Shown here: one piece after another, positions 8,867 to 29,218 of the stretch
How positions within the stretch are numbered: the stretch's first letter is position 1
Layout: every line of letters begins with the position of its first letter
Virus record (IMG/VR): IMGVR_UViG_3300008111_000258
Span: 1 to 29,218 of that record
Source of the DNA: a virus
DNA: 29,218 nucleotides
Strand: one strand, 5' to 3'
Notes under the pieces: generated by a model
What the model saw: the letters and a program-made list of their open reading frames with translations, nothing else
Databases searched by the model: none
What the model was told of the DNA's origin: nothing
Position numbers and translations under genes: made by a program

Positions 8867-9833
8867 TGATAAAATCCTCCACCAAAGATTGCGAAACTTT
8901 TAAAATATATGCTGCGTTATCTTGTGCTCCAAAAGTAATCAGTAAATCATCTCTATATTCTGCTAAACCACAACAGAATTCTATTTTCATATTGAGAAAA
9001 GAAAATAGTTTTGAAAGCTTTTGATTTTTAAAGTCTTTATCCCAGTAAACAAATCGGTGACGATATGTTGCGTTTTTTCTTCCTTGCTCACTATTATATA
9101 ATTCAGTCTCATGAATTAAAGTTAGATATCCATCTTTCCACTTAATAACTTGAGAACCACCTCTCATGTCATTCATTCTTTCAGTTTTTGAATTAGTTTC
9201 AAACACTTCAGTTTCGCCACCATTAGGATCAAATTTCATTAAACATGTTGGATTAGTCCATTTTAACAAATGGAATGGATTGCCCTCAATAGGAGTGCAA
9301 TTTTTCATGCAATATTCATTATCTGGCGGCGGTCCTGGAATACGATATCTAGATACTTCTTTGACTTCCGAATCTGTAAATTCAAGTTCTGAAAGTTCCA
9401 TCCTCCCAGTTCCTTTTGTATCTAAATCTCTTCTTACTCCGCAAATGTAAATATGATTTCCCCAGTTGATCAATCTACAGTCTTCTAAACCAACAAATTC
9501 CCATTGTGGTTGATATGTATCAAATTCAGAGGTGTCTACTTTAGTAGAATAAACCACCTCTAAATTTTCATCAAGTTCCGCAATATAATTTGTGGTCCGT
9601 AAATGCATATCATTCTCTGGATGAATGTATGACAATGGACCCCAAAGATGTTCAAATCTATTCAATTCTGCATGATAAAGCGTATAGTTGACATTTCTAA
9701 TATTTACTATTATCTTGTCATTTACTACAAGGACTGATGGATTTGTGAGAGATGGTCCTGATAAATCTTGTGGTTTTATAAGTAATGGTTTTACTTTCCC
9801 ACCATTTTCAAGGGCAAGTTTTACAAAGTTCAT
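8859..9833 (-). CDS. GH130-like beta-propeller glycoside-active protein
   Basis: A 324-residue protein with the signature order of the GH43/GH130 five-bladed propeller superfamily: NPSVLVVND (31-39), GLEDCRLI (115-122, compare the GxEDPR motif of GH130), RGGSQVI (224-230), LIHET (239-243), KIEFCCGLAEY (283-293) and FGAQDN (301-306). GH130 members phosphorolyse or hydrolyse mannosides. The Cys replacing the usual Pro in EDPR is unusual, so activity should not be assumed, and a lectin-like or transferase role is also possible. An ATAAATA late motif lies 31 bases upstream. It overlaps the FkbM/oxygenase gene, which suggests joint action on a sugar. Confidence 0.75.
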   Translation of the reverse strand: MNFVKLALENGGKVKPLLIKPQDLSGPSLTNPSVLVVNDKIIVNIRNVNYTLYHAELNRFEHLWGPLSYIHPENDMHLRTTNYIAELDENLEVVYSTKVDTSEFDTYQPQWEFVGLEDCRLINWGNHIYICGVRRDLDTKGTGRMELSELEFTDSEVKEVSRYRIPGPPPDNEYCMKNCTPIEGNPFHLLKWTNPTCLMKFDPNGGETEVFETNSKTERMNDMRGGSQVIKWKDGYLTLIHETELYNSEQGRKNATYRHRFVYWDKDFKNQKLSKLFSFLNMKIEFCCGLAEYRDDLLITFGAQDNAAYILKVSQSLVEDFINE

Positions 9834-13562: not shown

Positions 13563-16500
13563 TTAACTATTTAGATTTTTTTGAATGATGTTAAGATTCT
13601 CTTTGACAATTTCAATTTCCTTTTGTTGTTCTTTGATTGCTTCAATTAATACACCTACAATATTTCCGTAAGAAACTGACTTAAGACCATTTTCATTTTC
13701 AACAACGACTTCTGGAATTACTTTTTCAATATCTTGTGCAATCACACCAATTGATGGTTGATTGTGATTATCCTTCCACTTATACCTTACACCTTCCATT
13801 TGTGATACCAAATCAAGTGCGTTTTCAATTAATTGAATATCAGTTTTTTGTGTTCTATCAGATAGTGAAGTAAATACGGTTGCTGATAATGTTCCTGTGG
13901 AAGGATTGAAGTTTAATTTAGTACTTGAAGCATAAGTTGCTGTTGGTGTTCCAGTAGAAACATCAGAAAATAGTGGATATCTTGTGCTATTTGTAGTAGT
14001 ATCATTAGTGATAGATGAACTACCAGAACTTCCAGTAGTGCCTTGAGCACCTGTAGTTCCTTGTGCTCCAGTTCCAGTGGTGCCTTGAGCACCTGTAGTT
14101 CCTTGTGCTCCAGTTCCAGTAGTTCCTTGTGTTCCAGTAGTTCCTTGAGCACCTGTAGTTCCTTGAGCACCTGTAGTTCCTTGAGCACCTGTAGTTCCTT
14201 GTGCTCCAGTGGTGCCTTGCGTTCCGGTGGTTCCCTGTACTCCTTGATTACCAGTTCTTGAGAATTGAACTGCTACAGATGCACCATTTGAAGGTAAAGA
14301 ACCTGATATATGCGATACTGGAATTTTATAGTATCCAGACGCTGCAATGACTGAGCCCGTAATACTCCAGATATTAATAAGAGTGCTTCCTGAAGTTGCT
14401 CCTTGTACAATTAAGTAACCTTTTTGGGATGAAGATGTTGAATCATCCCAAGTATCATACCAAGTTGTCTGAACATTTGAGTTAGTGTCATTATTATCAA
14501 TGTATATAAAACTGACAGACCCAATTGTTCCACTATCATACCTTAAAATTCCATTTCCGGGATCCGCATCAGTAGTTGTTGAACTAAATGTATATGGAGC
14601 ACCACCGGTTGCATCACTTCCTGTTGTTCCTTGAGCACCTGATCCTGCAGCACCTTGGACTCCCTGAGTACCTTGAGCACCTAATGTTCCACCATTGTAT
14701 GAAATAATATCAATAACATCACCTAATACTGCACCTACTGCCAATACCACAGAAGTTCCATTTGATGCAGTGTATTCTGATTCTGAAAGTCTGACACCAT
14801 TTAAAAATACGTCAATAAATCCAACCGTATAAGTTACTGAAAAATTAGTCTGTCCAGATGTTGCGGTATATGACGCAATTGACTTGTCATAATTAACACC
14901 TGAAGTTCCTTGTGTTCCGTTGGATCCTTGAGTTCCAGTAGTACCTTGAGTTCCAGTAGTACCTTGAGAACCAGTTGTTCCCTGAGTTCCTGTAGCACCT
15001 TGAGTTCCTGTAGCACCTTGAGTTCCTGTAGCACCTTGAGAACCAGTTGTTCCTTGAGAACCAGTTGTTCCTTGTGTTCCGTTGGATCCTTGAGTTCCTG
15101 TAGCACCTTGAGAACCAGTTGTTCCTTGAGTTCCTTCTGTACCCTGTGATCCAGTGGTTCCTTGAGTTCCTTCTGTACCCTGTGATCCAGTTGTTCCTTG
15201 AACACCTTGAATACCCGCATCAAATGGAGTTGTCCAAGAAACTCCAGCACCAGTTGAAATAAGAACTGATCCAGCTACTCCCACCTTTTCATAAAAATCT
15301 TTAAGACCAGAACGAAGTCTTAAGTTTCCGCCAGTTATATCTAATTTGTCTGTTGGAGATTGAGTTCCAATACCAACGTTGAAAAAATTATTTCCACTAA
15401 TCCAAGCAGTATTTCCAGAACCAATTAATAATTGAGTATTTCCAGTTTCACTTGGTAATGAAAGTGTAGATGAAGAACCACCTAGAATGACAACATTTGA
15501 ACTCCCTGATGTAATTTCATTTCCAGCATAATTTCCTAGAAGTAAATTTCCATTTCCTGATGTTATTGCAGCACCCGCTTGAACTCCAATGCCTATATTA
15601 AAATCACCATTTGTAGTAGTAGTACCATAAAGTGATTGATAACCAACAGCAATATTATAAGAACTGTCGGTTCCATCTTGATATTTTGCTTGATAACCTA
15701 TTGCGATGTTATAATCACCATCATCATGTGCATACATTGCCTCCTGTCCTAAGGAAACATTAGATATACCTGCAATAATACCAAAACCTGCACCAAAACC
15801 AATTAAGGTATTTCTTGATCCAGATGTTAGCGCCTCACCCGCTTGATATCCAATTGCAACATTATAATCACCACCGGTAGTTGAATAAAGAGACTGATAT
15901 CCAATAGCAACATTACCTAATGCACTAGAATTAAGAGTTCCTCCATAAAATGCTTGATAACCAATCGCAACATTATAATCGCAAGATGAAAGATCATAAC
16001 CGGCTTGATATCCAATTAAAACATTATACTCGCAAGTACTAGTTGCAAGTTCTGCTGCTTGATATCCTGCAACAAAGTTATAATCGAATGAAGTAGGCCA
16101 GTGAGTATTAAATCTTGCCGCAGTTACGATACCTGTAAAGTTTGAATTGCCTGTTACTGACAGTATACTAAAAGTAGAAATCCCAGAAATATTCAGTTGC
16201 GGAGAACTAATAGTACTATCAGTAACTTGCATACCTCCAGCAGCAAGTCTTACTCCATTTGGTAACTGTGTCGAACCAATACCAATTGCATAGTTACTCA
16301 ACCAAGCATCAGTATAACCAGCACCAATATCACCACCCCTGAACCACATAATTTTCTTATATGTGTCTGGATTAGTTTCTCCACCAATTGCAAGACTTAC
16401 AAGTGGAGTCCCTTCAGTTGATGCAATCGCAATACCACCATGGCTTGCAGTTGCATCAGTTGGTGAGAATGAAGTACCAATACCAAGAACAATATCAGCA

Positions 16501-17378
16501 TCAATTACTGTAAGTTGTTGAGTATTAAGTTGTGCTGATGTGCCACCAATAGTAATTGCACCATCAACATTTAAATTGCCGTTGATGTCAGTGTTATTTA
16601 AAACTGTCAGTGTATGAGTAACTAACTCGGTTCCATTGAATGTGAGATTAGAAGAACCAGTTGGATTATTAGAACCATCTTTATAAACAACTTGATTTGC
16701 AGAACCTGCTACTGGTCCTGTAATACCTTGAATGCCCTGAGATCCTTCAGTACCTTGTGCTCCAGTAGTTCCTTGTGTACCATCAGTACCTTGAGTTCCT
16801 GTTGCCCCCTGAGTTCCTGTGGTTCCTTGAGTTCCTGTGGTTCCTTGAGTGCCTTGGGTTCCCTGAGTACCTTGGGTGCCATCAGTACCTTGTGTTCCGT
16901 CAGTACCTTGAATTCCCTGAGTACCTTGAGTTCCTTGGATTCCCTGAGTACCTTGTGTTCCGTCAGTACCTTGAATTCCCTGAGTACCTTGAATTCCCTG
17001 AGTACCTTGTGTTCCTTCAGTACCTTGAATTCCCTGAGTACCTTGTGTTCCTTCAGTACCTTGAATTCCCTGAGTACCTTGTGTTCCGTCAGTACCTTGA
17101 ATTCCCTGAGTACCTTGAGTTCCTTGGATTCCCTGAGTACCTTGTGTTCCTTCAGTACCTTGGATTCCCTGAGTACCTTGTGTTCCTTGAGTTCCTTGTA
17201 GTCCTTGAACTCCAATTTGAACTACTGTAGTTCCTATTCCTACCCCTAAAGTATCTTGGCGAATAAACAACTTTCCATCATAATGGTTAATAGCTATTTC
17301 TCCAAGACCTAACTGTTCGACTGTGGGTGTTTTTCCCTGAACGGTAGACCTTTTAACTCTTATGATGGGATCAGCCAT
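13563..17378 (-). CDS. Collagen-like tail fibre with C-terminal S74 chaperone (1271 aa)
   Basis: Residues 1-50 (MADPIIRVKRSTVQGKTPTV, GLGEIAINHYDGKLFI) resemble the N-terminal anchor of tropism-determinant/fibre proteins. Residues about 56-221 are uninterrupted Gly-X-Y triplets, mostly GTQ, GIQ, GTD and GTE. A paralogous beta module follows (IAIASTEGTPLVS). Next come many NVAIGYQAG-type repeats like those of trimeric adhesin heads, then two more Gly-X-Y blocks. The last 99 residues are an S74 intramolecular chaperone: SDRTQKTDIQ (Ser at about 1173), GVRYKWK, IGVIAQDIE, SVSYGNIVGVLIEAIKEQ and a C-terminal coiled coil. S74 domains trimerise the fibre and usually cleave themselves off just before the Ser-Asp. 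It is most likely a host-recognition fibre. A late promoter and a palindromic leader precede it. Confidence 0.9.
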   Translation of the reverse strand: MADPIIRVKRSTVQGKTPTVEQLGLGEIAINHYDGKLFIRQDTLGVGIGTTVVQIGVQGLQGTQGTQGTQGIQGTEGTQGTQGIQGTQGTQGIQGTDGTQGTQGIQGTEGTQGTQGIQGTEGTQGTQGIQGTQGIQGTDGTQGTQGIQGTQGTQGIQGTDGTQGTDGTQGTQGTQGTQGTTGTQGTTGTQGATGTQGTDGTQGTTGAQGTEGSQGIQGITGPVAGSANQVVYKDGSNNPTGSSNLTFNGTELVTHTLTVLNNTDINGNLNVDGAITIGGTSAQLNTQQLTVIDADIVLGIGTSFSPTDATASHGGIAIASTEGTPLVSLAIGGETNPDTYKKIMWFRGGDIGAGYTDAWLSNYAIGIGSTQLPNGVRLAAGGMQVTDSTISSPQLNISGISTFSILSVTGNSNFTGIVTAARFNTHWPTSFDYNFVAGYQAAELATSTCEYNVLIGYQAGYDLSSCDYNVAIGYQAFYGGTLNSSALGNVAIGYQSLYSTTGGDYNVAIGYQAGEALTSGSRNTLIGFGAGFGIIAGISNVSLGQEAMYAHDDGDYNIAIGYQAKYQDGTDSSYNIAVGYQSLYGTTTTNGDFNIGIGVQAGAAITSGNGNLLLGNYAGNEITSGSSNVVILGGSSSTLSLPSETGNTQLLIGSGNTAWISGNNFFNVGIGTQSPTDKLDITGGNLRLRSGLKDFYEKVGVAGSVLISTGAGVSWTTPFDAGIQGVQGTTGSQGTEGTQGTTGSQGTEGTQGTTGSQGATGTQGSNGTQGTTGSQGTTGSQGATGTQGATGTQGATGTQGTTGSQGTTGTQGTTGTQGSNGTQGTSGVNYDKSIASYTATSGQTNFSVTYTVGFIDVFLNGVRLSESEYTASNGTSVVLAVGAVLGDVIDIISYNGGTLGAQGTQGVQGAAGSGAQGTTGSDATGGAPYTFSSTTTDADPGNGILRYDSGTIGSVSFIYIDNNDTNSNVQTTWYDTWDDSTSSSQKGYLIVQGATSGSTLINIWSITGSVIAASGYYKIPVSHISGSLPSNGASVAVQFSRTGNQGVQGTTGTQGTTGAQGTTGAQGTTGAQGTTGAQGTTGTQGTTGTGAQGTTGAQGTTGTGAQGTTGAQGTTGSSGSSSITNDTTTNSTRYPLFSDVSTGTPTATYASSTKLNFNPSTGTLSATVFTSLSDRTQKTDIQLIENALDLVSQMEGVRYKWKDNHNQPSIGVIAQDIEKVIPEVVVENENGLKSVSYGNIVGVLIEAIKEQQKEIEIVKENLNIIQKNLNS
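13568..13574 (-). promoter_or_regulatory. Late promoter motif CTAAATA
   Basis: CTAAATA on the minus strand, 20 bases before the ATG at 13547. It lies inside the last codons of the collagen-like fibre gene. Confidence 0.55.
14030..14252 (-). repeat. Collagen-like Gly-X-Y repeat block 3
   Basis: GTTGAQ and GTTGTQ units, interrupted twice by a GTGAQ that breaks the triplet phase. It lies just before the region leading to the S74 chaperone. Copies of the 18-base unit coding for GTTGAQ are nearly identical. Confidence 0.85.
14897..15217 (-). repeat. Collagen-like Gly-X-Y repeat block 2
   Basis: About 105 codons rich in GTQGTTGSQ and GATGTQ units, in the middle of the fibre gene. It lies between the NVAIGYQAG-type head repeats and a beta domain. 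Several 18- and 27-base units are near-identical direct repeats. Confidence 0.85.
16716..17213 (-). repeat. Collagen-like Gly-X-Y repeat block 1
   Basis: About 165 codons of G-X-Y with a 9-base period and a higher-order pattern in which blocks such as GTQGTQGIQGTEGTQGTQGIQ (20-residue scale) recur. The Y position is nearly always Gln in the first two thirds and Thr/Gln later. The DNA is repetitive enough for slippage and recombination and opens long spurious frames on the other strand. Confidence 0.9.
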
Positions 17379-17670: not shown

Positions 17671-20600
17671 TCAGAAAGTCCCAGCGTCAATAGTAATATT
17701 TTGTAGATTTCTCGTAGAACCAGTACAAGAAATAACTTGAGATGTTCCAGCGCAATCAGTGACCCAAAGAGAACCAATTTCAATAGGAGCAAATGTGGAA
17801 ACTGTAATTTGAGGACTGTTGGCATCTGTTCCTCCACCATCACTAATTGCAGAACCAAACTGAAATCTTCCATCTGCGTGTTCCCAAACAACTGCAGATT
17901 GTTTTGCGCTATCAGTGTAGTAATTAAAGAGAACTCCAAGGTCCCAAGTCGTTGCAGTTGTTGGTGCAGCACCATCAACAATACCTAGTTGAATAGTGCG
18001 GTCTTCTACAGTAAGAGAAGCAGTATTAACTTGAGTAGTGTTTCCATTTACATAAAGATTACCTTGAACTGTTAGGTCATCAGCAATCGTAACATCATTC
18101 GCAGCAATCGTAATTGCAGTTGCGCCAGTGTTTGATGATTGAATAGTTGCAGTTCTTAATGTTGGAGCACTTAAGGAAGTTCCAACAACAACTGCATTTG
18201 GAAGACCTACAGTAATAGTTTGAGCCGATACTGAGGTTTCAACTTCATTCGCAGTTCCATTAATAACTAAGGTTTGTGAAGTATTAAGAGTACTTGGACC
18301 ACCACTATCAGCATTCAGTCCAAGAGTTAGATTAATTGCCCCAATCTCAGCATCAACATAATTAATAATTGCTGAAGAAGTGGGAACTGAAGAAGTTGAA
18401 GTTCCCGATCCGACTGCAGATGAGAACTGAGTAATGCCAACTCCAGTCCCTACCGTAGTAATACCACTAATAATTAAGTTTCTTGCAAAAGTTGCATCCA
18501 AATCAACAAAAGATAGTGTATTACTTGCGTTTGTTGAACTTCTAAAACTATTTGCAATGATTTTACCTTGGAACGATACATCGCCAGATGTATCGTACAT
18601 ATACATCGCACGAGTTCCATTTGCAGAATCAAGATAACCGCTACCTGCAATTAGGTCTCCAGCAGATTTTACATTTCCAGTTACTGTTGAAATAGAAACT
18701 GCAACAGTACCATCACTTGCCTGAATGTCATTACCACCAATCTTAACATCTCCAGCAAAAGTAGTTAATGTATTTGATGTTAATGTGATATTAGTATTGC
18801 CATCACTCGCTTTAATGTCATTGCCATTGATACGAATATCTCCATCAACAACGACATCGGTAGAGAAAGTTGAAATACCTGTTACGTTAATTCCACCAGA
18901 ACCAACAATTAATCCACCAGCACCAAAAGTAAGATTTGAACTATCTTCAAGAGCTCCAGAAGTTCCTGCGAGAACAACTCTACCTGCAGTTAAGTCAGAA
19001 ACTGTTGCAGATGATAGTGTTGTTTCTCCACCAGAAATATCAGCACCACCATTAGCATCAATTGCGCCAGTAAATGTTGATATTCCACTTACTAAAGTAT
19101 TGCCAGTAAACTCAGCGTGTTGTGTAGTAAGTTTATTAGTACCTGGGTTGTAGTAAATACCGTCATCAGTATAAATTGATTCATTTGTTGCAGAACCATT
19201 GTTTGCATCAACAAATGTGATATGATAATTTGCATTGGTATCTGCTGCAGTGACAGTCTTAACCTGGTCTGCTGATGATACATTACCTACTAAAGAACCA
19301 TAGAAAGTTGTTGCACTTACCTCAGTATCACTAACAGTAACACCTGAACCAACAGCAAGACGAACTCCGCTTGCCATTTGAGTGGTTCCGATTGCAACTC
19401 CATAGTTAAACCCAAATGCATCTGTAGAAAATCCAAGAGTTCCACTCTTGAACCACATCATCTGCTTATAAGTATCTGGAAGTGTATTGATTCCAGAAGC
19501 AGTAAATGATACTAATGGTGTTCCCTCAGTAGATGCAATAGCTACACCAGCGTGATTTGCTGAGGTATCTGTTGGTGTAACTGAAGTTGTGTATCCAAGT
19601 ATAATATCTTTGTTTTCAATATAAACATCTTGTCCGAGTAATGTGACTGTGGTTCCACCAATAGTTACATTACCATTTACCGTTAAATCATTCTGAATAA
19701 TAGTATTATCTTGAATGATTACGCTGCCTGCTGGATCAAGAACAAGATTTCCCGATGAAGTTGTAATCTTATTTGCATCATCAGCACCGATTCTTATATT
19801 ACTTGCGTCTATTCCACCATCAAATGTACCTATACCAGCAAAACTTGTATGTCTCCACTGCCTTGCACCATCACCTAAATCATAAGTATTTGACGCATTT
19901 GGATATAATCCTGAAGTAAACTCACCACCAACATTAATATTATCTCCAGTATCATCACCAAGATTAATTAACCCACCTTTAAATGTTACGACACCAACAA
20001 ATTCACTATAACCTTGTACTCCAAAGTTTCCTCCAACATAAAGGTCACTTAAGAATGTACCAACTCCAACAAATGTAGAGATTCCTGATACATTCAATGC
20101 ATCATCAATTGAGGTAAATCCTGTGGCAGAATCTAATATCAGATTTCCAACAGAAGTATCAATTTCATTATTTGTAGATACACCAATTCTTATATTTTTA
20201 ATCTCTGCACCACCATTGGCATCAAGTAGTCCAGTAAGAGTAGAAATTCCAGATACAAATAAATCAGTAAATGCTGCCTGAGATCCAGGAACTGCAACAC
20301 CTAAAATACCAGCGTAAACTGCACCACTAACATAAACACTTTTACCGGAAATCCCACTTGGTAAATTTGCTCCAATAAAGTTTAAGGTTCCTGATTGATA
20401 ATCAAAGAACCACTCATCATCATTTCCAGAACCTGCTCCATATATTTGAGTGCCACTGGAGGCAGCAGATGCAGCATTACCTGGAGTATGTAAATAAACT
20501 TTTACAAGATAGGTAGAACCAATTTCTGGAGGAATCCAATCGGTAATATTTGTTTTCCAAGTTCTGTTAAGAGAAGAAGTTGTATCGGCAGCACATTCTA

Positions 20601-20823
20601 CGGGACTTGAAGTTGGATATACTGTTACAATACCAGAGGTGCTCCCTGGCATAACTCCAGGTACTAAATTTGCTTGAGACCAAACTTTATCACCACGGAG
20701 AAGTAGTGGACTTGATATAGATTCATTGGTCGCTGCTTTTAGAGTGCCAGTATCTGTTTTAGCCCTACCATAACCAATTTTTTTCCAGAGATAATCAACC
20801 TTTTGAGTGTCTGTGATTGCCAT
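17671..20823 (-). CDS. Large virion structural protein with repeated beta modules (1050 aa)
   Basis: Starts MAITDTQKVDYLWKKIGYGR. The N-terminal about 170 residues form a distinct domain (WIPPEIGSTYLVKVYLHTPG, DDEWFFDYQSGTLNFIGANL) that I recall from many T4-like cyanophage virion proteins. The remainder consists of VSGISTFTG-like beta units and two copies of a module with IENKDIILGY / AIASTEGTPLVS, one of them divergent at the C-terminus (LTVEDRTIQLGI). The last residues are TIDAGTF. AAGGAG 12 bases before the ATG is a good ribosome site and overlaps the end of the upstream gene, so both are on one late transcript. Probable role: baseplate or fibre-associated structural protein. A terminator follows. 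Confidence 0.85.
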   Translation of the reverse strand: MAITDTQKVDYLWKKIGYGRAKTDTGTLKAATNESISSPLLLRGDKVWSQANLVPGVMPGSTSGIVTVYPTSSPVECAADTTSSLNRTWKTNITDWIPPEIGSTYLVKVYLHTPGNAASAASSGTQIYGAGSGNDDEWFFDYQSGTLNFIGANLPSGISGKSVYVSGAVYAGILGVAVPGSQAAFTDLFVSGISTLTGLLDANGGAEIKNIRIGVSTNNEIDTSVGNLILDSATGFTSIDDALNVSGISTFVGVGTFLSDLYVGGNFGVQGYSEFVGVVTFKGGLINLGDDTGDNINVGGEFTSGLYPNASNTYDLGDGARQWRHTSFAGIGTFDGGIDASNIRIGADDANKITTSSGNLVLDPAGSVIIQDNTIIQNDLTVNGNVTIGGTTVTLLGQDVYIENKDIILGYTTSVTPTDTSANHAGVAIASTEGTPLVSFTASGINTLPDTYKQMMWFKSGTLGFSTDAFGFNYGVAIGTTQMASGVRLAVGSGVTVSDTEVSATTFYGSLVGNVSSADQVKTVTAADTNANYHITFVDANNGSATNESIYTDDGIYYNPGTNKLTTQHAEFTGNTLVSGISTFTGAIDANGGADISGGETTLSSATVSDLTAGRVVLAGTSGALEDSSNLTFGAGGLIVGSGGINVTGISTFSTDVVVDGDIRINGNDIKASDGNTNITLTSNTLTTFAGDVKIGGNDIQASDGTVAVSISTVTGNVKSAGDLIAGSGYLDSANGTRAMYMYDTSGDVSFQGKIIANSFRSSTNASNTLSFVDLDATFARNLIISGITTVGTGVGITQFSSAVGSGTSTSSVPTSSAIINYVDAEIGAINLTLGLNADSGGPSTLNTSQTLVINGTANEVETSVSAQTITVGLPNAVVVGTSLSAPTLRTATIQSSNTGATAITIAANDVTIADDLTVQGNLYVNGNTTQVNTASLTVEDRTIQLGIVDGAAPTTATTWDLGVLFNYYTDSAKQSAVVWEHADGRFQFGSAISDGGGTDANSPQITVSTFAPIEIGSLWVTDCAGTSQVISCTGSTRNLQNITIDAGTF

Positions 20824-20835
20824 TTTGTCTAAATT

Positions 20836-20841
20836 CTCCTT
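20836..20841 (-). promoter_or_regulatory. Ribosome binding site AAGGAG
   Basis: AAGGAG on the minus strand, 12 bases before the ATG at 20823 and overlapping the TAA of the upstream gene. It is the strongest Shine-Dalgarno site of the virion block. Confidence 0.65.
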
Positions 20842-23668
20842 ATGTTATGCTAAGGCTTGTTACCGATTGACCAGAAGCGAGAGCGATTCTGACTAAAAGA
20901 ACATTACCAGTAGCATTACTTAAGTTTTCACTACCAAGAGTTAAAGTATAACTTCCACTCAAAGAGGTTCCGGAAGATATAACGTCACCAGGCGTATCCG
21001 CACATCCATTACTGCCATTACCACCTGCTCCAGTATTTGCACCTGGAACACCTGAACCTGCATATACAGTATCCGCTCTTAACCAACCATTAAGAGTGCT
21101 AGTACTATCTATACTTGTTCCAGGTGCAGCAATCCAAAGTCCAGTGATACCAGAAGATGTAATATTAACATTAACATTAGCAACTGCTTGTCTTCTAAAT
21201 GCAAAAGTGAAATATTGAGTTCCACTTCTGTTAGATGAAAAATCTGGACCAACGGGCAGATATCCAGTTGAATAATTTACTTGATTATGAGTAATATTTC
21301 CAAGTCTTACAACTGCTTCTCTAGTTGTAGTAATTCCTGCGGGTGCAGAACCTTCAGAGTATGGATTGTTGGTATAGAAATTAGTTGAACTATTGTATGA
21401 AGGAGTATCTGTAGCAATTCCAGGTCCAAAATCGTAAATTCTCTTACCATCATCAGTGTAAGTTCCATTACCTAAACTATCAGAAACTGCAATTGCAAGT
21501 TCACTAATTCCACTTTGTGCTGCAGTGTGAACTTGGATATTAGTTCCAATATCACTAGAATATCCACTGATTCCATTTACATTTCTAGCACGAACCTTTA
21601 CTCTATCAACTGTTCTTACACTTGAAGATGTGATAGGAACAGTTAAGTTACCTAATGTATATGCAGATGAAGTTCCAGTATTTGCATTTGGAATTCCGCC
21701 AGTCAACATACTTGAAGAACCATTTATCTGCGAGTATGTGTAATCACTATCAGTTGTACCAGCACTAGAGGTTCCTTCTTGATTTGTACCAGTGTCAACT
21801 TCTACAATATTTGACTGGTTAGTATAGGTTTGACCGACTATATTTGTAACTGTAACTCCAGAGAGAGTTAAACTTGGGGACCCAGTATTGTAATATGGGA
21901 TACCAGAAACATAGCGATAAGTACCAGAAACGTTTTCTGCTAAAGAAGCTCCTGCAACACTAACAGTAGGAGTTCCTGTCATATCGTCTTTAACAAACTC
22001 CACAGTATTAGTGTTGCCTGTAGCACTGTGAAGTAACTGCATACTGTTTAAACCAGTATTCAGATTTGAAACTAACTTTGAAACCTTTGCTTTGAAACCT
22101 TTATATAATCCAGGGTAGAAGGTACTTGCAGCAAAGGTAGTTGTTGCTCCAGTTGAATTCAATAACTGATAATCACTTTCTGAAGTAATTACCAGACTTG
22201 TATAAGTTCCAGAATCATCTCCACTTGTTAGTGTTGTTGAACCATCCGAAGAACCATTTACGTTTGCAGTAAGAGTTCCACTATTCGCATTATAAGCAAA
22301 TGTGGAGATTGGTCCAGCTTCTGCACTTCCTCCTGTTACACGATTGACATCGTTTCCTGCACTTAGAACTGCACCACCAGTGTTGTCGGTAAATCCAGAA
22401 GCAAGTTTTGGACTTGTGCCTACGCTAGTAACATTTGTTAGAGTTTTGCTGCTTAATCCGTCAGGTGCTGCAGGTGAATCATCATAAACCTTAAGTGCTA
22501 CAGTACCAGTGGCAGGAATAACACCTGGATTTGCGGTGTTATGCGAGTTTAGAGTTAATGTGAGAGTATCAGTACCAGTTGAACTATTTGTGCCCTGACT
22601 CCAAGTGTGTTGAAGTCTTGCTGCACCTGCACCTGCTCCACCAGATGCTGAATCGTTTGCAATTGAGTCATTTGAGGAACCATCTCCCCAACCCATCGTA
22701 TAATCAACTGTTGCGCCCGATGTATTTGTTGTATTATTGTCTAAGTAAAGAGATTCTCCCTCAACAACATATAAGTCATTACCTGAAAGAGCACTTCCGC
22801 CACTAGAACCTCTGTATAATGCAAATCCAACTACTGGATTTGGTGTGTAAAGAGTGATGTAATCTGTCTTAGAGGTTGTGAACGAACTTCCCGCACCTAC
22901 TCCTGTATTATTCTTTGCAGTTAATGTGATTGAGAACAATCCGCCATTAGCATCACTATAGGTGTGGGGGATAGATGCCGATGAATAGTTGGATGTTGTT
23001 GTACCGTCTCCCCAATCGACATCATAACGGTTAGCATTTCCAGAACTTGTAACCGTTAGTGTCACTGCAAGTGGAGAACCTCCTGCAAGAGTATTGGAAG
23101 AAAAGTCTACATTAGTAACCGCAGTGTTTCTTATGATATTGAATGCGAGTTCATTTAAGTCATCAATACTATCAACAATTTTTGTTGAAGTTGTAAGAGT
23201 ATTAAGTGCCCCATTACTAGTAATACTAGAATCTGTAGGAGTTCCTAACGTTAACGCACCACCTTCACCATAATAGTTTGTTGCGGTTACAACTCCAGAT
23301 ACAGAAACACTGGGGAATTGGTTAGACCAAGTTAATTCCCCAGTTGAATTTGTTTTTAAGAAGTAAGAACCAGCAGGATTTTCTGGAAAAGTGTATGTTG
23401 TGATTCCAGAGAGAGTGTTCGGAGCTTTAAAGGAAATATGATTTGTTCCGTCTTTATCTACAAGATTTAAGCGGAGAGAAGTACTTGCATCTTCTCTTCC
23501 CCAATAACGATGAGAACCGAAGAATTTATTACCATTAACAGACGTGTTTAGTCCTACAAATAAATCATATTTGTCAAGTGTTAATGCAGGTTCACCTGGA
23601 CGAAGAGCAGGAATAGTTGCCGCCGCCCCAATATTACCACGCTTAAACTGTAAGATTGGTGAAGCCAT
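20840..23668 (-). CDS. Large virion protein with PKD-like domains (942 aa)
   Basis: Residues 1-60 (MASPILQFKRGNIGAAATIP, LRPGEPALTLDKYDLFVGL) resemble the anchor of the collagen-like fibre and of tropism-determinant proteins. Two PKD-like Ig domains follow: YDVDWGDGTTTSNYS with IPHTYSDANGGLFSITLTAKN (about 186-255) and MGWGDGSSND with RLQHTWSQG (about 290-395). The rest is Gly/Ser/Thr/Val-rich beta structure ending SGQSVTSLSIT. PKD folds in phage tails usually mediate weak carbohydrate binding or act as spacers. AAAGG seven bases before the ATG and a CTAAATA 33 bases upstream support the start and late expression. It is most likely an adhesin or fibre of the baseplate region. Confidence 0.85.
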   Translation of the reverse strand: MASPILQFKRGNIGAAATIPALRPGEPALTLDKYDLFVGLNTSVNGNKFFGSHRYWGREDASTSLRLNLVDKDGTNHISFKAPNTLSGITTYTFPENPAGSYFLKTNSTGELTWSNQFPSVSVSGVVTATNYYGEGGALTLGTPTDSSITSNGALNTLTTSTKIVDSIDDLNELAFNIIRNTAVTNVDFSSNTLAGGSPLAVTLTVTSSGNANRYDVDWGDGTTTSNYSSASIPHTYSDANGGLFSITLTAKNNTGVGAGSSFTTSKTDYITLYTPNPVVGFALYRGSSGGSALSGNDLYVVEGESLYLDNNTTNTSGATVDYTMGWGDGSSNDSIANDSASGGAGAGAARLQHTWSQGTNSSTGTDTLTLTLNSHNTANPGVIPATGTVALKVYDDSPAAPDGLSSKTLTNVTSVGTSPKLASGFTDNTGGAVLSAGNDVNRVTGGSAEAGPISTFAYNANSGTLTANVNGSSDGSTTLTSGDDSGTYTSLVITSESDYQLLNSTGATTTFAASTFYPGLYKGFKAKVSKLVSNLNTGLNSMQLLHSATGNTNTVEFVKDDMTGTPTVSVAGASLAENVSGTYRYVSGIPYYNTGSPSLTLSGVTVTNIVGQTYTNQSNIVEVDTGTNQEGTSSAGTTDSDYTYSQINGSSSMLTGGIPNANTGTSSAYTLGNLTVPITSSSVRTVDRVKVRARNVNGISGYSSDIGTNIQVHTAAQSGISELAIAVSDSLGNGTYTDDGKRIYDFGPGIATDTPSYNSSTNFYTNNPYSEGSAPAGITTTREAVVRLGNITHNQVNYSTGYLPVGPDFSSNRSGTQYFTFAFRRQAVANVNVNITSSGITGLWIAAPGTSIDSTSTLNGWLRADTVYAGSGVPGANTGAGGNGSNGCADTPGDVISSGTSLSGSYTLTLGSENLSNATGNVLLVRIALASGQSVTSLSIT

Positions 23669-23713: not shown

Positions 23714-24019
23714 TTAAAATGTTCCACCATCAAGATTAATTTTATTATCTAGGTCAACATCTACACGATCTAGGAAGGCAGTTGCATATCCAACAAATCC
23801 AGGTTGTGTTGTTTCTGTAGATGCTGCTGCATTAAAGACTTCATCTGGATTTACATCTTTCCACTTACCAGAAGCAGCATCATACATTAAAACATACTTA
23901 TCTCTATTACCACTTATCTGTACATCATATAATTCGTTTAAATTTTGTGGCATGATCTCTATCTTAGATGAAAGACTTACTTTGTAATTTTGTTGAGATA
24001 ACTTGACGTTATAAGTCAT
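23714..24019 (-). CDS. Small virion-associated protein (101 aa)
   Basis: Starts MTYNVKLSQQNYKVSLSSKI and ends VDVDLDNKINLDGGTF. The centre (DKYVLMYDAASGKWKDVNPD) is a phrase common in fibre-associated phage proteins. I recall near relatives in cyanophage structural clusters. Its ATG overlaps the stop of the 111-residue gene before it as ATGA, so the two are made together. The final DGGTF resembles the final DAGTF of the 1050-residue protein. It is probably a structural or assembly component. No enzymatic motif is seen. Confidence 0.8.
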   Translation of the reverse strand: MTYNVKLSQQNYKVSLSSKIEIMPQNLNELYDVQISGNRDKYVLMYDAASGKWKDVNPDEVFNAAASTETTQPGFVGYATAFLDRVDVDLDNKINLDGGTF

Positions 24020-24351
24020 ACTGATACACTCTCCTCTACCATGGCAGTACCTTTTATAACTTTAATTCTCTTTTCATTTAAAGTAAGCACAACATCAAAA
24101 TAATTTCTACCTGCTGTTAAATTTGCAGTTTGTTCTGGAGTCAATGTAAGTTTTATTGTTCCATTTCCAGAGGTAATTGTTTTTGCAAACTCTTCGTATG
24201 ATGTTGAGGTTTGATGTTTGCGAATGGACGCATAAGTTGTTGTGAGTCCTGTTAGAACTGAAGCAGACTGATTCGGATCAAAAAGATTAAAAGTTGCCTC
24301 AAAGTGAGTTCCCTTCTCAATGACTATATTTGTAATCTCAGCAACTGCCAT
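24016..24351 (-). CDS. Small beta-rich virion protein (111 aa)
   Basis: Starts MAVAEITNIVIEKGTHFEAT and has an Ig-like beta pattern (GTIKLTLTPEQTANLTAGRN, YFDVVLTLNEKRIKVIKG). GTHFEATFNLFDPN followed by the YFDVVLT strand is, from memory, typical of small baseplate/fibre-associated proteins of cyanophages and resembles the N-terminal Ig domain of upper-baseplate proteins. A late ATAAATA lies 20 bases upstream, and this is the first gene of the virion block after the sugar cassette. The stop overlaps the next ATG. Confidence 0.8.
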   Translation of the reverse strand: MAVAEITNIVIEKGTHFEATFNLFDPNQSASVLTGLTTTYASIRKHQTSTSYEEFAKTITSGNGTIKLTLTPEQTANLTAGRNYFDVVLTLNEKRIKVIKGTAMVEESVSV

Positions 24352-24371: not shown

Positions 24372-24378
24372 TATTTAT
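24372..24378 (-). promoter_or_regulatory. T4-type late promoter motif ATAAATA
   Basis: GATAAATACT on the minus strand, 20 bases before the ATG at 24351. It lies in the 30-base gap that separates the glycan cassette from the virion block. Confidence 0.65.
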
Positions 24379-24381
24379 CTA

Positions 24382-24738
24382 TCAATATAATTTAATCTCT
24401 TTGTAATATGAATTAGTTACTTCATTAATTTTTCTTTTTATCTCTGCTCTTTTATCATTGGTAATATAAACACTTCGAGCAAGTTCAACAAACTTTTCTC
24501 CAAAGTCTTGCTTCTTTTCCAGTTCTCTCAATTCATCTTCAATCTTCCAGAGTTTTAAATTTACCTCACGCAATTCATTCATATATTCAAAAGTAAATTG
24601 CGTGAGAGTATTTTTAATTTGATTCAAGTCCTCAAGTTCTTTAATGACATATTCATTGTTGGTAAACATAGACTTAATTTCAAGAATTGAAATCTTATCT
24701 AATAGTTCACCTACAGATACTGGAATTGTGATTTTCAT
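24382..24738 (-). CDS. DUF6165-like protein (118 aa)
   Basis: Starts MKITIPVSVGELLDKISILE and carries LKLWKIEDELRELEKKQDFG, ELARSVYITNDKRAEIKRKI and a final EIKLY. These phrases match the DUF6165 family as I remember it: helical proteins of about 120-130 residues common in bacterial and cyanobacterial polysaccharide clusters, without a known activity. It is fully helical, with no membrane segment or catalytic motif. The start overlaps the exostosin-like gene as ATGA, and it is the last gene of the cassette. A helper or scaffold role for the neighbouring glycosyltransferases is a reasonable inference. Confidence 0.8.
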   Translation of the reverse strand: MKITIPVSVGELLDKISILEIKSMFTNNEYVIKELEDLNQIKNTLTQFTFEYMNELREVNLKLWKIEDELRELEKKQDFGEKFVELARSVYITNDKRAEIKRKINEVTNSYYKEIKLY

Positions 24739-25505
24739 AATACTTCCTTTACTCTATTTTGAATTGTTTGAATTCTATTTTGCCACCAATTCAAAACTGG
24801 CATATTATCTACAGGTTTTTCTAGTAGTGACTCACATTTATCTAATGCATCATTCCAAGTTTCCGCAAATACCCAAGGAGGATTTTCTTCATACTTAAAT
24901 GTAGATTCAATCTCTTCCTTCGAACCAACGACAACAGGTATAGATCCATTCATAGATGCTTCATAAAGTCTAAAACAATCTAGTGACGAATTGCCTCTCC
25001 CACAAGGAACAAATATAGATTTAGAATATATCTTGCACATTAAATCTTTGGGTAAAGACTTTCCTACAAAGTGTTTTGGAATACTTTTGAAAGTATCAAT
25101 CATTTTTTGTCTGTCTGTTTTAATTTCTCCAAGAAAAGACCAATGTAATTCTTTTTTCTCTTTGAATGATTTGCATCCATTTGTATATCCAAGAGGAATA
25201 TGAATAGTATTTGGTGTGTAACTATATTGTGGGTGATGATATTGTCTTAAAAACAAATCACAATAATTTCCCAACTGATTGAACTGATGTAGATTTTCCG
25301 CAATCAATTCATCAGAAAGGCAAATTATAATTTTTGGTTTTGTTTTTTGAACAATTGATAATATTTGGTTATATGAATGTGCTCTTGATGCAAAAACAAA
25401 AACATCCCCCACATCATTTAGATTATGAGAAACTTCTCCTTTGGATAAAATGTCTTTTAATAGAAAGTCAGTTTCCCATAATCCATTTTCAATTACAATC
25501 TTCAT
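24735..25505 (-). CDS. Exostosin-like glycosyltransferase (GT47 type)
   Basis: A 256-residue protein. The C-terminal nucleotide-sugar region reads FVPCGRGNSSLDCFRLYEAS then NGSIPVVVGSKEEIES, the exostosin signature (PRGxxxxSxRLxExxxxGxIPVVV). The middle part has LHWSFLGEIKTDRQKMIDTF, also typical of the family. It probably has a GT-B fold, transfers a sugar from a nucleotide donor, and acts in the cytoplasm, as no signal or membrane segment is present. ATGA overlaps link it to both neighbours. Donor and acceptor are unknown. Proteins of this family build polysaccharide or glycoprotein chains. Confidence 0.8.
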   Translation of the reverse strand: MKIVIENGLWETDFLLKDILSKGEVSHNLNDVGDVFVFASRAHSYNQILSIVQKTKPKIIICLSDELIAENLHQFNQLGNYCDLFLRQYHHPQYSYTPNTIHIPLGYTNGCKSFKEKKELHWSFLGEIKTDRQKMIDTFKSIPKHFVGKSLPKDLMCKIYSKSIFVPCGRGNSSLDCFRLYEASMNGSIPVVVGSKEEIESTFKYEENPPWVFAETWNDALDKCESLLEKPVDNMPVLNWWQNRIQTIQNRVKEVL

Positions 25506-26959
25506 AGATTAAATGTTGTTTTAATTTCATTGATAATTGTGGGATTCTTGCAAACCACACCTAAACCAAAAGAATGTTCAAATGTAAATTTAGGCATATC
25601 GAGTTCATCAAAGAACTTTTTAACTCCATACTCCTTTCCTTCATATTGTTCTACGCAAGTGTCGTGCATTAGAATAATACCATTATCAGAAACAAACTTA
25701 CTCCAAGTTTCAAAGTCTTTTTTAACGTCTTCGTAGTGATGACTACCATCAATGTGAAGAATGTCAATTTTTTTATCCCAGGTTTCTGCTACTTCATTAA
25801 AATCACCTTTGATAAGAGTGACATTATCTTGAAGATGGAGTTTTTCTCTCTTCATATTTACAAAATTATATTGGTAAGAAGAATGTTCTCCAACAAAATC
25901 ATCACCAACAAAGTTATCAACACCATAAACGTGACCGATTCTTGGAATAGCAAAGGAGAATGTTGAGAACCCATAATCAACTCCCAAATCAACAATTACT
26001 TTTGGATTTAAAAACTTAACTAACCATTCGGCAAAATTACGATGACCTGACCAAGCTGTTGCTGGTGTGTCATCAAGATTATTCAAGAAAAGATTGTCAA
26101 TGGCATCAGTTCTTTCTTTGAGTCTTAATGTATCTGGATTAAATCCTGATGCAAATACAATAATGTTTGGATTTTGTGTAAGTTGACCGATTTTCAGGAG
26201 ATGAGTGAATGCATTACCCATAGCATTTCCACCAATATTCATTGCCTCACTTACAGCATGGAAAGCATAATTAGATGCTTGTTGAATATTTTGAAGATTC
26301 ACTAAAGCAATACTAGACATAATGAATACATCAATTCTTACTTCAAAATAATGCTTGAAGATAAACCAAATATAATATGAATTTTCTGGATTATTTTGAT
26401 ACTCTCTTTCACAAATTGAAAGATAGAAAAGTTGCTTATCAATACTTGGTTGAATTGTTTTTGTAATCTTAATTGTCGTATCTACTGCAACTTCACCAAG
26501 ATGTTCTTCAGTAGGAAGGAACATTGGTGTTTCGTGAACTGCATTAACCCAAGTATAGTTTTTAGTTCTATGAAAACGAACATGTGCTGTTTGACCTAGA
26601 GTTGGTTCTTCTTCTCCAACTTTATCATATCGTTCGTGATTAAATGCAGTAAATTCTCCAGAGATTACTTCAAAACCTTCAGGGAAAAACTCATCAAGGT
26701 CTTCATTAAAGTCCAGAGAAAAAGCCCAATCTGTTTTTACATAAGAAAGTGCTTGATTTCTTGCTTTGGAGAAATCAAACTCATCTCTGCTTTGAGGATG
26801 TTCGTGAACTTCAATACCAGCATCCTTAAGAAGTTGAACCGTATTATCTGTACTGCCAGTATCAACTACAACTGTATGAGAAAATTTCTTTGAATTTTCA
26901 ATAAACTTTTCAATGTTCTTTTCTTCGTTTTTTGCAATAGCATAAAGTGTGATGTTCAT
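25502..26959 (-). CDS. GT2 glycosyltransferase + SAM methyltransferase fusion (485 aa)
   Basis: The start is the ATG at 26959, which overlaps the previous stop as ATGA; a TTG-type extension to 26974 is rejected. Residues 1-150 are a GT2 domain: LYAIAKNEEKNIEKFI, VVVDTGSTDNTVQLLKDAGI and FDFSKARNQAL. The usual metal-binding DxDE is replaced by DFNED (83-87). Residues 175-290 are helical, TPR-like. Residues 305-470 are a class I methyltransferase of the Methyltransf_24 type: VIVDLGVDYGFSTFSF (321-336), VYGVDNF, LIKGDF, ILHIDGSHHYEDVKKDFETW and IILMHDTC. It would glycosylate and methylate the same product. The acceptor is unknown, and the altered DxD puts transferase activity in some doubt. Confidence 0.85.
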   Translation of the reverse strand: MNITLYAIAKNEEKNIEKFIENSKKFSHTVVVDTGSTDNTVQLLKDAGIEVHEHPQSRDEFDFSKARNQALSYVKTDWAFSLDFNEDLDEFFPEGFEVISGEFTAFNHERYDKVGEEEPTLGQTAHVRFHRTKNYTWVNAVHETPMFLPTEEHLGEVAVDTTIKITKTIQPSIDKQLFYLSICEREYQNNPENSYYIWFIFKHYFEVRIDVFIMSSIALVNLQNIQQASNYAFHAVSEAMNIGGNAMGNAFTHLLKIGQLTQNPNIIVFASGFNPDTLRLKERTDAIDNLFLNNLDDTPATAWSGHRNFAEWLVKFLNPKVIVDLGVDYGFSTFSFAIPRIGHVYGVDNFVGDDFVGEHSSYQYNFVNMKREKLHLQDNVTLIKGDFNEVAETWDKKIDILHIDGSHHYEDVKKDFETWSKFVSDNGIILMHDTCVEQYEGKEYGVKKFFDELDMPKFTFEHSFGLGVVCKNPTIINEIKTTFNL

Positions 26960-27654
26960 AAAAATTTTTCCCAATCAATACAAGGTGATAATAAGTCTGC
27001 TTGACAATGTGTAGAATAACCGGGTAAACAAGAGATTAAATAGTTTCCTCTTTGATTGAGATCTAAAAACTTTGAATGGTCTTGTGTCGGTTCAGTATCT
27101 GTTGAATACTTCTGATGTATGTATAAGTCTTTTAAAAGTGTCTTATATTTTACAGCAAAGGTATTTGTAGTGGAAGGAACTGGTTTCCAATGAGAACTTT
27201 CAGTAATCAAAATCTTACTCATTAGTTCAGCATACATCTCTTGATACTTGTCTCTGTGGTCGTACAAGGTTACATAAGAAACTGGAAGTGTAAATCCCTC
27301 CATTAAAATCTTATCCCATTCTGGGCGGTGTACATAATCATCTTCAAGGAAATAGATGATGTCTTCTGAAGAATGATTTTGAGTTTGAATATATTCTAAA
27401 GTTTTAAGAAAACTCTTTGCTTCTCCTCCACAATTGATTGTATAAACATTCTGTTCTTGAGATAGGAAAGTATCTTCTATCTTCCCATAATGTTCGTCAT
27501 AGATGATTGTGTATTTGGTGGTTTCTGGATTGAGTGTATTCTTAAAGTTTTGGAATACCTTTTCCTTATCCCACCAAGAAGGTCTCTGCTTTCCCGGACT
27601 TTCCTGTATCTTTGAGTAATAGCAGTGCCTTAAATATACATTAATTTTTTTCAT
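26956..27654 (-). CDS. Putative GT-A glycosyltransferase (232 aa)
   Basis: Start at the ATG at 27654 (MKKINVYLRHCYYSKIQESP), where a 14-base overlap with the preceding gene's end gives coupling; the longer frame to 27717 is less likely. DIIYFLEDDYVHRPEWDKIL (around 98-117) resembles the acidic metal-binding motif and following helix of GT-A glycosyltransferases. The later SHWKPVPSTTNTFAV and DHSKF segments fit the acceptor side. No methyltransferase or membrane segment is present. Similar proteins are found in phage and bacterial glycan clusters, but the family assignment is from a weak pattern. It may be a distant paralogue of the next-listed gene. Confidence 0.65.
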   Translation of the reverse strand: MKKINVYLRHCYYSKIQESPGKQRPSWWDKEKVFQNFKNTLNPETTKYTIIYDEHYGKIEDTFLSQEQNVYTINCGGEAKSFLKTLEYIQTQNHSSEDIIYFLEDDYVHRPEWDKILMEGFTLPVSYVTLYDHRDKYQEMYAELMSKILITESSHWKPVPSTTNTFAVKYKTLLKDLYIHQKYSTDTEPTQDHSKFLDLNQRGNYLISCLPGYSTHCQADLLSPCIDWEKFL

Positions 27655-28444
27655 TGAGTTTCTCCAAATCGTATTCATTCCACCAAGACTTCCAATCAAT
27701 AAAGAAATCTCTATCATACTCTCCTTGTAAATGAAGTGTTAATGATGGGATAGGTGTAAAGCAAAAATGTCCTCTTTCATAATAGATTTTGCAAATACTA
27801 TCCATTTCCATTGTTTCACTCACTTCACTGGTTCCCATTTTGTGAAATAAATCCCAGTGCTTTCTTATAATACCTATGTGAGTCATCAAAGTGACTGCTG
27901 GATGAATATTAGTTCTCCAATATCTGTCCTTTGATACTACAATATTACAAGAAACAGCAGTATTCTCTGCTTGATGATATTCTGCTGGTTTATTAAATGG
28001 AAAGATACTTGCTGGAGCATTTAGATTACAACTAAACTGATTAATAGCGTGTATCATCAGTTCAACAGAGTTTTGTTGATGAAGAAAATCATCCTGAACA
28101 AAATATACCCAATCTTTCCCAAAGTCTCTTCCGTGCTCGTAACACCTCAAGATAGAAGGCATAATACCATAAGTCTCAAGATGAGTTAGATTAGTTTTAA
28201 ACTTTGCGATGGTGATAAGTTTTTTTAGAATATCTAAAAACTCTTTGTCCGAGTGGTCATCAAAGATTTGTAGTTCAATCTCATAATCTGGATAATGTTC
28301 TTGTGTGTAATTGAGACTATCAATCAAAGAAAAGATACACCTTGAAGAAACTTCAATCTTTGGTGCCTCACAATATCTTCCAGAATCCTTATCACGATTT
28401 CCTTTTGAATGTGTCTGAACAACAACTAACAAATGAGTTTTCAT
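27641..28444 (-). CDS. Putative GT-A glycosyltransferase (267 aa)
   Basis: Starts MKTHLLVVVQTHSKGNRDKD. Residues 50-140 look like a Rossmann-type GT-A core: EIELQIFDDHSDKEFLDILK, then KDWVYFVQDDFLHQQNSVEL with QDD as the probable metal-binding acidic motif. The C-terminal half has SNIVVSKDRYWRTNIHP-like sequence and PIPSLTLHLQGEYD. The ATG overlaps the sulfotransferase stop (ATGA), and the end overlaps the next gene by 14 bases. It shares the YF-x2-DDF/Y-x-H pattern with that gene, so the two could have arisen by duplication. Donor and acceptor are unknown. Confidence 0.65.
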   Translation of the reverse strand: MKTHLLVVVQTHSKGNRDKDSGRYCEAPKIEVSSRCIFSLIDSLNYTQEHYPDYEIELQIFDDHSDKEFLDILKKLITIAKFKTNLTHLETYGIMPSILRCYEHGRDFGKDWVYFVQDDFLHQQNSVELMIHAINQFSCNLNAPASIFPFNKPAEYHQAENTAVSCNIVVSKDRYWRTNIHPAVTLMTHIGIIRKHWDLFHKMGTSEVSETMEMDSICKIYYERGHFCFTPIPSLTLHLQGEYDRDFFIDWKSWWNEYDLEKLNEKN

Positions 28445-29218
28445 AAGTCAAACTTGGAATAAAGTTTTACATTCTCTTCTCCTATTACATCAATAGGATT
28501 TTGTGAAATTTTAGCAAGATTTGGACGAATATCGTGAAGCCCTTTAAGTCCCCATTCTTCATCCTTTTGTTCTCCACAAGCATTTTCAATATTATTAAAA
28601 GTATTTGTATGAGATGGAACTTCTAGAAAGTTGTAAATCTTATTAAGTTCTTCTTCTGGATTATTTACAAGAGCATTATATTCAACTAAATGAACCCAAT
28701 CTGGATACTTATTGAGTCCATAAATCATTGATTCATAAGAAGGAGCAACATAATATCTCCAAATGTATTCGGCACGATTGTTATTTGTGATTGGTAGATT
28801 ATCTTTTCTTAAATGATTATCAATGAAGTTATTTTCGTGTTGAGTTCTTTCTATAAGTGAAATATAAGATGTAAGAACTTCTGGTATAGAACGATAAGTT
28901 GCTACAATCTTTGGTTTGTTAGAAAGAAACATTTGAACTGTATCAAGGTTCTTTCCCCAAAACCGATGCTTATCTAGGATTGTTGATTTTGGAATGTGAT
29001 TATAAAAGTTTGCAAGAACTGCCTTATAGACATTATAAGAGATTGCCTTGCGGTCAAAGGTGAATTGAATATCTAAAGTATTAAATGATTTCTCAATATC
29101 AGTCACTACATCACCCAATGGAGATGTTGGTGATACATAAATGTCTGGATGTTGATTGAGAAGAGACCCAAGTAATGTAGAACCACTTCTTGGAAGTCCT
29201 CCAAGAAAATATAATGTC
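28441..29218 (-). CDS. Sulfotransferase, 5' end beyond window
   Basis: The frame stays open to the right edge. The visible N-terminal part reads FLGGLPRSGSTLLGSLLNQH, the PAPS 5'-phosphosulfate loop of sulfotransferases (GLPRSGST). KIVATYRSIPEVLTSYISL supplies the 3'-phosphate-binding Arg/Ser region. A TTG at 29118 should not be taken as the start because it would remove the PAPS loop. Later, VHLVEYNALVNNPEEELNKI and IYNFLEVP are typical of Sulfotransfer_1/3 proteins. The enzyme moves sulfate from PAPS to a hydroxyl, probably of a sugar made by the coupled glycosyltransferases. The stop overlaps the next ATG. Only a few residues of the start should be missing. Confidence 0.9.
   Translation of the reverse strand, partial: TLYFLGGLPRSGSTLLGSLLNQHPDIYVSPTSPLGDVVTDIEKSFNTLDIQFTFDRKAISYNVYKAVLANFYNHIPKSTILDKHRFWGKNLDTVQMFLSNKPKIVATYRSIPEVLTSYISLIERTQHENNFIDNHLRKDNLPITNNNRAEYIWRYYVAPSYESMIYGLNKYPDWVHLVEYNALVNNPEEELNKIYNFLEVPSHTNTFNNIENACGEQKDEEWGLKGLHDIRPNLAKISQNPIDVIGEENVKLYSKFDL

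Follow-up and report, generated by a model that had tools for sequence, protein, structure and literature searches.

The window analysed here, i.e. the whole stretch of DNA under study, is a linear fragment of 29,218 bases (IMG/VR record IMGVR_UViG_3300008111_000258), in which six minus-strand genes (24382-29217 in the ORF listing) run into a block of fibre genes. Read from the contig end, they encode a sulfotransferase, a GT2-like glycosyltransferase (GTA1), a GT-A glycosyltransferase (GTA2), a fusion of a GT2 domain with a methyltransferase (GT2/MT), a GT-B glycosyltransferase and a DUF6165 protein. Neighbouring genes overlap by 4 bases at four junctions and by 14 bases at the GTA1/GTA2 junction, where GTA2 starts at the ATG at 27654, and 30 bases separate DUF6165 from the fibre block; the original prediction of six genes linked here by overlaps of 4 or 14 bases is borne out by the ORF listing and the coordinates. 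Curated Pfam cut-offs are exceeded by the sulfotransferase, GTA1, both domains of GT2/MT and DUF6165, the matches of GTA2 and the GT-B protein all staying below threshold, and the NCBIfam profiles gave no match above cut-off.

Predicted enzymes of the cassette

The sulfotransferase (28441..29217, minus strand) matches PF13469 (5.3e-15; 56.7 bits, cut-off 27) and PF00685 (4.2e-11; 43.2 bits, cut-off 22) and is open at the contig end. Since locus L002 encodes an identical protein starting MKTLYFLGG and the copy in the window begins TLYFLGG, only the first two codons are missing. Among 38 homologues, the loop GLPRSGSTLL, which binds the 5'-phosphosulfate (5'-PSB), is largely invariant, and the 3'-phosphate-binding residues R109 and S117 are invariant. 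By family and motifs, the protein is predicted to be a PAPS-dependent sulfotransferase, and in a search of solved-structure profiles its closest relatives are the protein-tyrosine sulfotransferases 1 and 2.

GTA1 (27641..28444, minus strand) passes the PF00535 cut-off (25.2 versus 23.3 bits), keeps its D-D motif in 17 homologues and finds weak matches to GT25 and other glycosyltransferases among solved-structure profiles. The fold of GTA2 (26956..27654 from the internal ATG at 27654, minus strand) was modelled with AlphaFold2 from 44 phage sequences (pLDDT 88.8). The model superposes on solved GT-A glycosyltransferases with Z 12.6-14.5 and rmsd 2.9-4.0 over 172-204 residues; GnT-I, the lysyl hydroxylase LH3, GalNAc transferases and POMGnT1 rank high, RmlT, TarP and a viral hyaluronan synthase also belong to this group, and ColGalT1 is matched too. 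An EDDYxH motif, comprising the acidic metal-site residues E104-D105-D106, is invariant, and GTA2 can confidently be predicted to be a GT-A glycosyltransferase. When the genomes of 84,980 bacteria and archaea were scanned for relatives retaining either of two conserved peptide patterns, none was found, and GTA2 appears to be restricted to phages. Neither GTA1 nor the GT-B protein has a relative in 50,697 phage records.

GT2/MT (25502..26959, minus strand) joins a GT2 domain (PF00535, 5.7e-9) to a Methyltransf_24 domain (PF13578, 2e-20), and its catalytic and SAM motifs are kept in 61 homologues. The closest solved relatives of the GT2 domain are the protein glycosyltransferases GmaR and SunS, and similarity to the TylF and CmcI types was seen among the methyltransferases. 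Gene length varies between loci, which encode GT2 alone, GT2-MT or MT-GT2-MT.

For the GT-B protein (24735..25505, minus strand), labelled an exostosin-like glycosyltransferase in the original prediction, the enzyme class held, whereas the family name is at most putative. Its RXYLT1_C match (20.2 bits) is below the cut-off of 27, there is no match to the Pfam family Exostosin (PF03016), and solved-structure profiles gave chance matches only. An AlphaFold2 model from 22 sequences (pLDDT 88.1) ranks FUT9 and the chlorovirus enzyme AO75L first in Foldseek, with EXT1/2 only at rank 50, and we dropped exostosin as a firm name; a second aligner returned GT4-like GT-B enzymes, including glycosyltransferases of serine-rich adhesins, with Z 12-14. 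The protein is confidently predicted to be a GT-B-fold glycosyltransferase, a fold common to many GT families. For both GTA2 and the GT-B protein the assignment as glycosyltransferases follows from the folds, from which donor and acceptor cannot be deduced. In a cyanophage-like contig (L018, 289-3588), a protein of 1,100 residues combines an N-terminal Methyltransf_24 domain with a GT-B domain and is followed by a glutaredoxin-like gene; similar proteins are found in L019-L021.

The last gene (24382..24738, minus strand) encodes a DUF6165 protein (PF19662, 40.7 bits, cut-off 27), probably an accessory protein or adaptor. Its cellular relatives number in the hundreds. Among 71 neighbouring genes from about 20 cellular loci, a sample taken without a random-gene control, 13 encode GT9 heptosyltransferases, and sugar epimerases and Kdo/WaaP kinases occur as well; because of these neighbours, the bacterial members of the DUF6165 family appear to accompany enzymes of surface glycans.

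Conservation, carriers and genomic setting

Relatives on viral contigs numbered 168 for GTA2, 405 for DUF6165 and 24 for the GT-B protein, of which no more than 80 per scan were retained. Clustering GTA2 at 95% identity yielded 52 clusters, 32 of them with enough flanking sequence: GT2/MT is present in 31, DUF6165 in 30, the sulfotransferase in 29, GTA1 in 10 and the GT-B gene in 7. All four core genes stand in order and on one strand in 28 of the 32, and 4-base overlaps are near-universal in cassette loci. Seeding with DUF6165 gave 33 clusters, in which the sulfotransferase and GTA2 were each found 29 times and GT2/MT 27 times. Of the six genes first proposed as one set, the core of sulfotransferase, GTA2, GT2/MT and DUF6165 is stable, whereas GTA1 (10/32) and the GT-B gene (7/32) are optional. 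A pN/pS of 0.08-0.23 against relatives, calculated for the five cassette genes other than GT2/MT, indicates that the cassette is under purifying selection, and motifs stay intact even where identity between loci falls to about 55% for GTA2 and to 27% for the sulfotransferase. With an identical order in 28 of the 32 non-redundant loci and a low pN/pS, the association lies far beyond chance; the refuting condition first proposed, co-occurrence at chance level, was checked and did not refute it. A divergent branch (L173, L177, L179, L182, L104, L149, L151), whose sulfotransferase and GTA1 share about 30% identity with those of the window, has a partly different middle section.

The carriers are cyanophages, because all six cassette records longer than 150 kb encode psbA/psbD family genes; the window itself, a short fragment of 29,218 bases, contains none. 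The cultured Synechococcus phage S-SRM01 (NC_070963) encodes the sulfotransferase, GTA2, GT2/MT and DUF6165 as gp345-gp348, in the order of the window, its proteins being 54-66% identical to those of the window (61% for GT2/MT). As in the window, the site is a fibre locus, in this phage between baseplate-wedge/fibre genes and a virion-protein gene; S-SRM01 differs in lacking GTA1 and the GT-B gene, and a nucleotide-sugar epimerase directly follows its DUF6165. In the Microcystis phage Mel-JY01, a GTA2 relative lies inside a cluster of glycosyltransferase and methyltransferase genes, and no fibre gene is annotated less than 6 kb away.

The constant neighbour of the cassette is an upstream operon comprising a TPR protein, a 2OG oxygenase, two unknown proteins, a cysteine-rich protein and, at its end, an RCC1-repeat protein. 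Among 28 clusters with upstream sequence, the TPR, the two unknown, the cysteine-rich and the RCC1 proteins each occur in 24-27 (RCC1 in 25), the 2OG-Fe(II) oxygenase in 20. The gap between the RCC1 gene and the sulfotransferase is below 30 bases in L002. In that locus, a small cysteine-rich (CxxCxxCC) protein, kept in 27 of the 28 clusters, is encoded just before the RCC1 gene (2617-2973).

Downstream, the window continues on the minus strand with a homologue of an L-shaped tail fibre assembly protein (24016..24351; phrog_3304, 2.7e-17) and three candidate acceptors: a virion-like protein with 27% Ser+Thr (20840..23668; phrog_8578, 6.8e-77), whose PKD-domain matches are weak and below cut-off, a large fibre-like or structural protein (17671..20823; phrog_9417, 1.2e-31, and the structural-protein family phrog_697) and a collagen-like tail fibre with a Peptidase_S74 C-terminus (13563..17378; PF01391, 3.4e-48, PF13884, 4e-16, and tail-fibre PHROGs). 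The cassette does stand directly before the virion block in the window, as originally stated, but this is a minority layout: within 9 kb downstream, the L-shaped-fibre/PKD/collagen genes were found in 4 of 39 GTA2 clusters, and the cassette thus occurs without the PKD and L-shaped-fibre genes as obligatory partners. About 20 of the 39 have instead the pair g324-g613, which in the window lies beyond the fibre block. g324 (8859..9833, minus strand), directly after DUF6165 in many relatives, is weakly GH130-like (PF04041, 15.5 bits, below cut-off). g613 (7025..8866, minus strand), likewise a conserved downstream partner in other loci, has a homologue in L016 (2796-5276) that combines TPR, FkbM methyltransferase and DUF6445 regions, and its family is a candidate second modifying enzyme of the locus. 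Two adjacent ORFs at 10008-12912 (784 and 151 aa) match the start and the end of one virion structural family, phrog_5838, and the frame appears to shift near 10,555 (frameshift, sequencing error or split gene).

Between cassette and fibre block, a pattern scan located a T4-type late-promoter-like octamer, NATAAATA (24372..24379, minus strand; a motif match only). The octamer occurs six times on the coding (minus) strand (24379, 17655, 17437, 13099, 9872 and 3230) and once on the other, several copies standing just ahead of virion genes or g324. Directly before the sulfotransferase it was found in only 2 of 30 loci and in none of the other 28, so that the test gives no support for late control of the cassette.

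Possible targets of the predicted glycan

The sulfation, glycosylation and methylation chemistry of the cassette is well supported, and a sulfated, methylated oligosaccharide, as first suggested, is a plausible product of what are real enzymes forming one conserved unit. Our preferred reading, to which we assign a probability of just under one half (about 0.48), is that this cyanophage operon builds a sulfated, O-methylated oligosaccharide in the host cytosol, with fibre or adhesin proteins of the phage itself as the most likely acceptors. Enzyme families, folds, motifs, gene order, the apparent phage restriction of GTA2 and purifying selection, as read from sequences or models, form its basis; for substrate, order of steps, acceptor, the role of DUF6165 and benefit we infer the following scheme. 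Soluble glycosyltransferases (GTA2 and the GT2 domain, joined in some loci by GTA1 and the GT-B enzyme) would use nucleotide-sugars of the host to glycosylate a side chain, which the 2OG oxygenase of the operon may have hydroxylated beforehand. The Methyltransf_24 domain(s) would methylate a sugar, the sulfotransferase would sulfate the glycan or a tyrosine with PAPS of the host as donor, and DUF6165 would act as a non-catalytic helper. The benefit may lie in changed adhesion, in protection from proteases or grazers, or in blocked self-adsorption to debris.

A virion protein as target is favoured by the fixed cassette order, by an operon reaching upstream through the RCC1 protein and the 2OG oxygenase, by the fibre-locus position in S-SRM01, by the lack of membrane machinery in the cassette and by the apparent restriction of GTA2 to phages. 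The nearness of the sulfotransferase to protein-tyrosine sulfotransferases and of the GT2 domain to GmaR and SunS would point the same way, as would the high rank of glycoprotein enzymes for the GTA2 model and of the chlorovirus glycosyltransferase AO75L for the GT-B model; against this, the bank of solved structures is biased to human protein glycosyltransferases, and TarP, RmlT and hyaluronan synthases score similarly. The pN/pS of 0.08-0.23 would also fit. The octamer is absent before the sulfotransferase in 28 of 30 loci and RCC1 is a putative virion protein only, both of which count against a virion target, as does the Mel-JY01 relative of GTA2 in its glycosyltransferase cluster.

Somewhat less probable, and still to be taken seriously, is that the cassette, in the way proposed for LPS clusters of the P-SSM2 type, remodels LPS or another surface glycan of the host during infection and thereby excludes superinfection or evades grazers; its position beside fibre genes would then reflect shared diversifying selection. 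Cyanophage sugar clusters have been read as host-surface modification (PMC7824862, PMC9602691), the bacterial neighbours of DUF6165 are LPS-core genes (GT9, Kdo/WaaP kinases), which speaks against a virion target, the nucleotide-sugar epimerase directly follows DUF6165 in S-SRM01, and locus L005, judged from its translations, adds a sugar nucleotidyltransferase-like and a fucosyltransferase-like gene. However, the cassette comprises no membrane protein, polymerase, flippase or ligase. As no hydrophobic 19-residue segment above 1.6 occurs in any of its proteins, it has neither a flippase nor polyprenyl machinery like that of gtr systems; the cassette does not fit gtr-type O-antigen conversion, the membrane flippase and membrane-bound glycosyltransferases being absent and the GtrB PHROG match reaching only E 0.05. 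GTA2 was not found in the scan of 84,980 cellular genomes, unlike what would be expected of a gene borrowed from host LPS synthesis, and late LPS remodelling is of little use to a lytic phage unless infection is long.

A bolder form of the preferred reading, that the operon hydroxylates, glycosylates, methylates and sulfates the fibre or adhesin proteins of the cyanophages that carry it and that collagen-type (LH3/L230-like) glycosylation evolved in a phage lineage, seems unlikely to us; no precedent was found for sulfated phage fibres. Rather improbable is a small diffusible, secondary-metabolite-like sulfated glycoside, or the modification of some other protein or nucleic acid of the host. 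Secondary-metabolite pathways have been seen in a second class of cyanophage cluster, where sugar enzymes are combined with 2OG oxygenases and O-methyltransferases (PMC7824862), and the TylF- and CmcI-type similarity would fit, but the cassette lacks a core-scaffold enzyme, its several different glycosyltransferases suggest a chain on a macromolecule, and its place with RCC1 and fibre genes is constant. Chance clustering of unrelated enzymes, or decaying cargo, to which the two optional members and the variable GT2/MT architecture might be ascribed, is hardly credible when gene order is fixed, genes overlap, purifying selection is strong and motifs are intact; chance clustering was rejected on conservation.

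Relation to known systems

Cyanophage glycan clusters, virion glycosylation in phages, methylated virion glycans in chloroviruses and collagen modification in mimivirus are already known. LPS/capsule clusters of P-SSM2-type cyanophages contain several GT families and 1-4 sugar epimerases or dehydratases, their glycosyltransferases being polymorphic between related phages (PMC7824862); the window likewise combines several glycosyltransferases with modifying enzymes, but its core is fixed and includes a sulfotransferase, and none of the ORFs searched encodes a sugar-making enzyme, the contig ending at the cassette. Chlorovirus PBCV-1 uses a GT-GT-methyltransferase machinery (A064R/A061L) that places a methylated glycan on a virion protein, the capsid protein (PMC9614988). 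Virus-encoded glycosyltransferases and methyltransferases are common to both, and the fold search with the GT-B protein placed the chlorovirus enzyme AO75L among its best matches; PBCV-1 is, however, a eukaryotic virus for which that review mentions no sulfotransferase, and we claim no homology to the GT2/MT fusion. Mimivirus L230 is a collagen hydroxylase-glucosyltransferase, viral collagen-like proteins being hydroxylated and glycosylated (PMC9614988). The match of the GTA2 model to LH3 and ColGalT1 and the 2OG oxygenase of the wider operon recall this system, but the likeness of GTA2 is at the level of a fold common to many GT-A enzymes, and collagen is a candidate acceptor. Mycobacteriophages Che8, Corndog and Myrna glycosylate capsid and tail proteins with their own glycosyltransferases (Freeman 2023, as cited in PMC12363180); these are different phages with different hosts, and no sulfotransferase or methyltransferase operon is described for them in that source.

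The open-access literature yielded no sulfotransferase cassette of a phage or cyanophage, which is not proof of absence. The original remark that no described phage system combining these five activities was known holds for that literature, with the qualification that S-SRM01 has four of the six genes, undiscussed, the paper on that phage making no mention of a sulfotransferase. What is distinct here, and apparently undescribed, is the sulfation together with the fixed fibre-locus position of an operon of sulfotransferase, glycosyltransferase, methyltransferase and DUF6165.

The choice between virion and host surface as the site where glycan genes of cyanophages act has so far been argued from gene content. 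The presence of the gene set in the cultured pair of S-SRM01 and Synechococcus sp. KCZYC6 allows a direct test of virion versus host surface, and DUF6165 gains a testable context. If the preferred reading is true, tailed phages would make a sulfated, methylated glycan by means of a compact, conserved operon whose core glycosyltransferase is apparently phage-specific.
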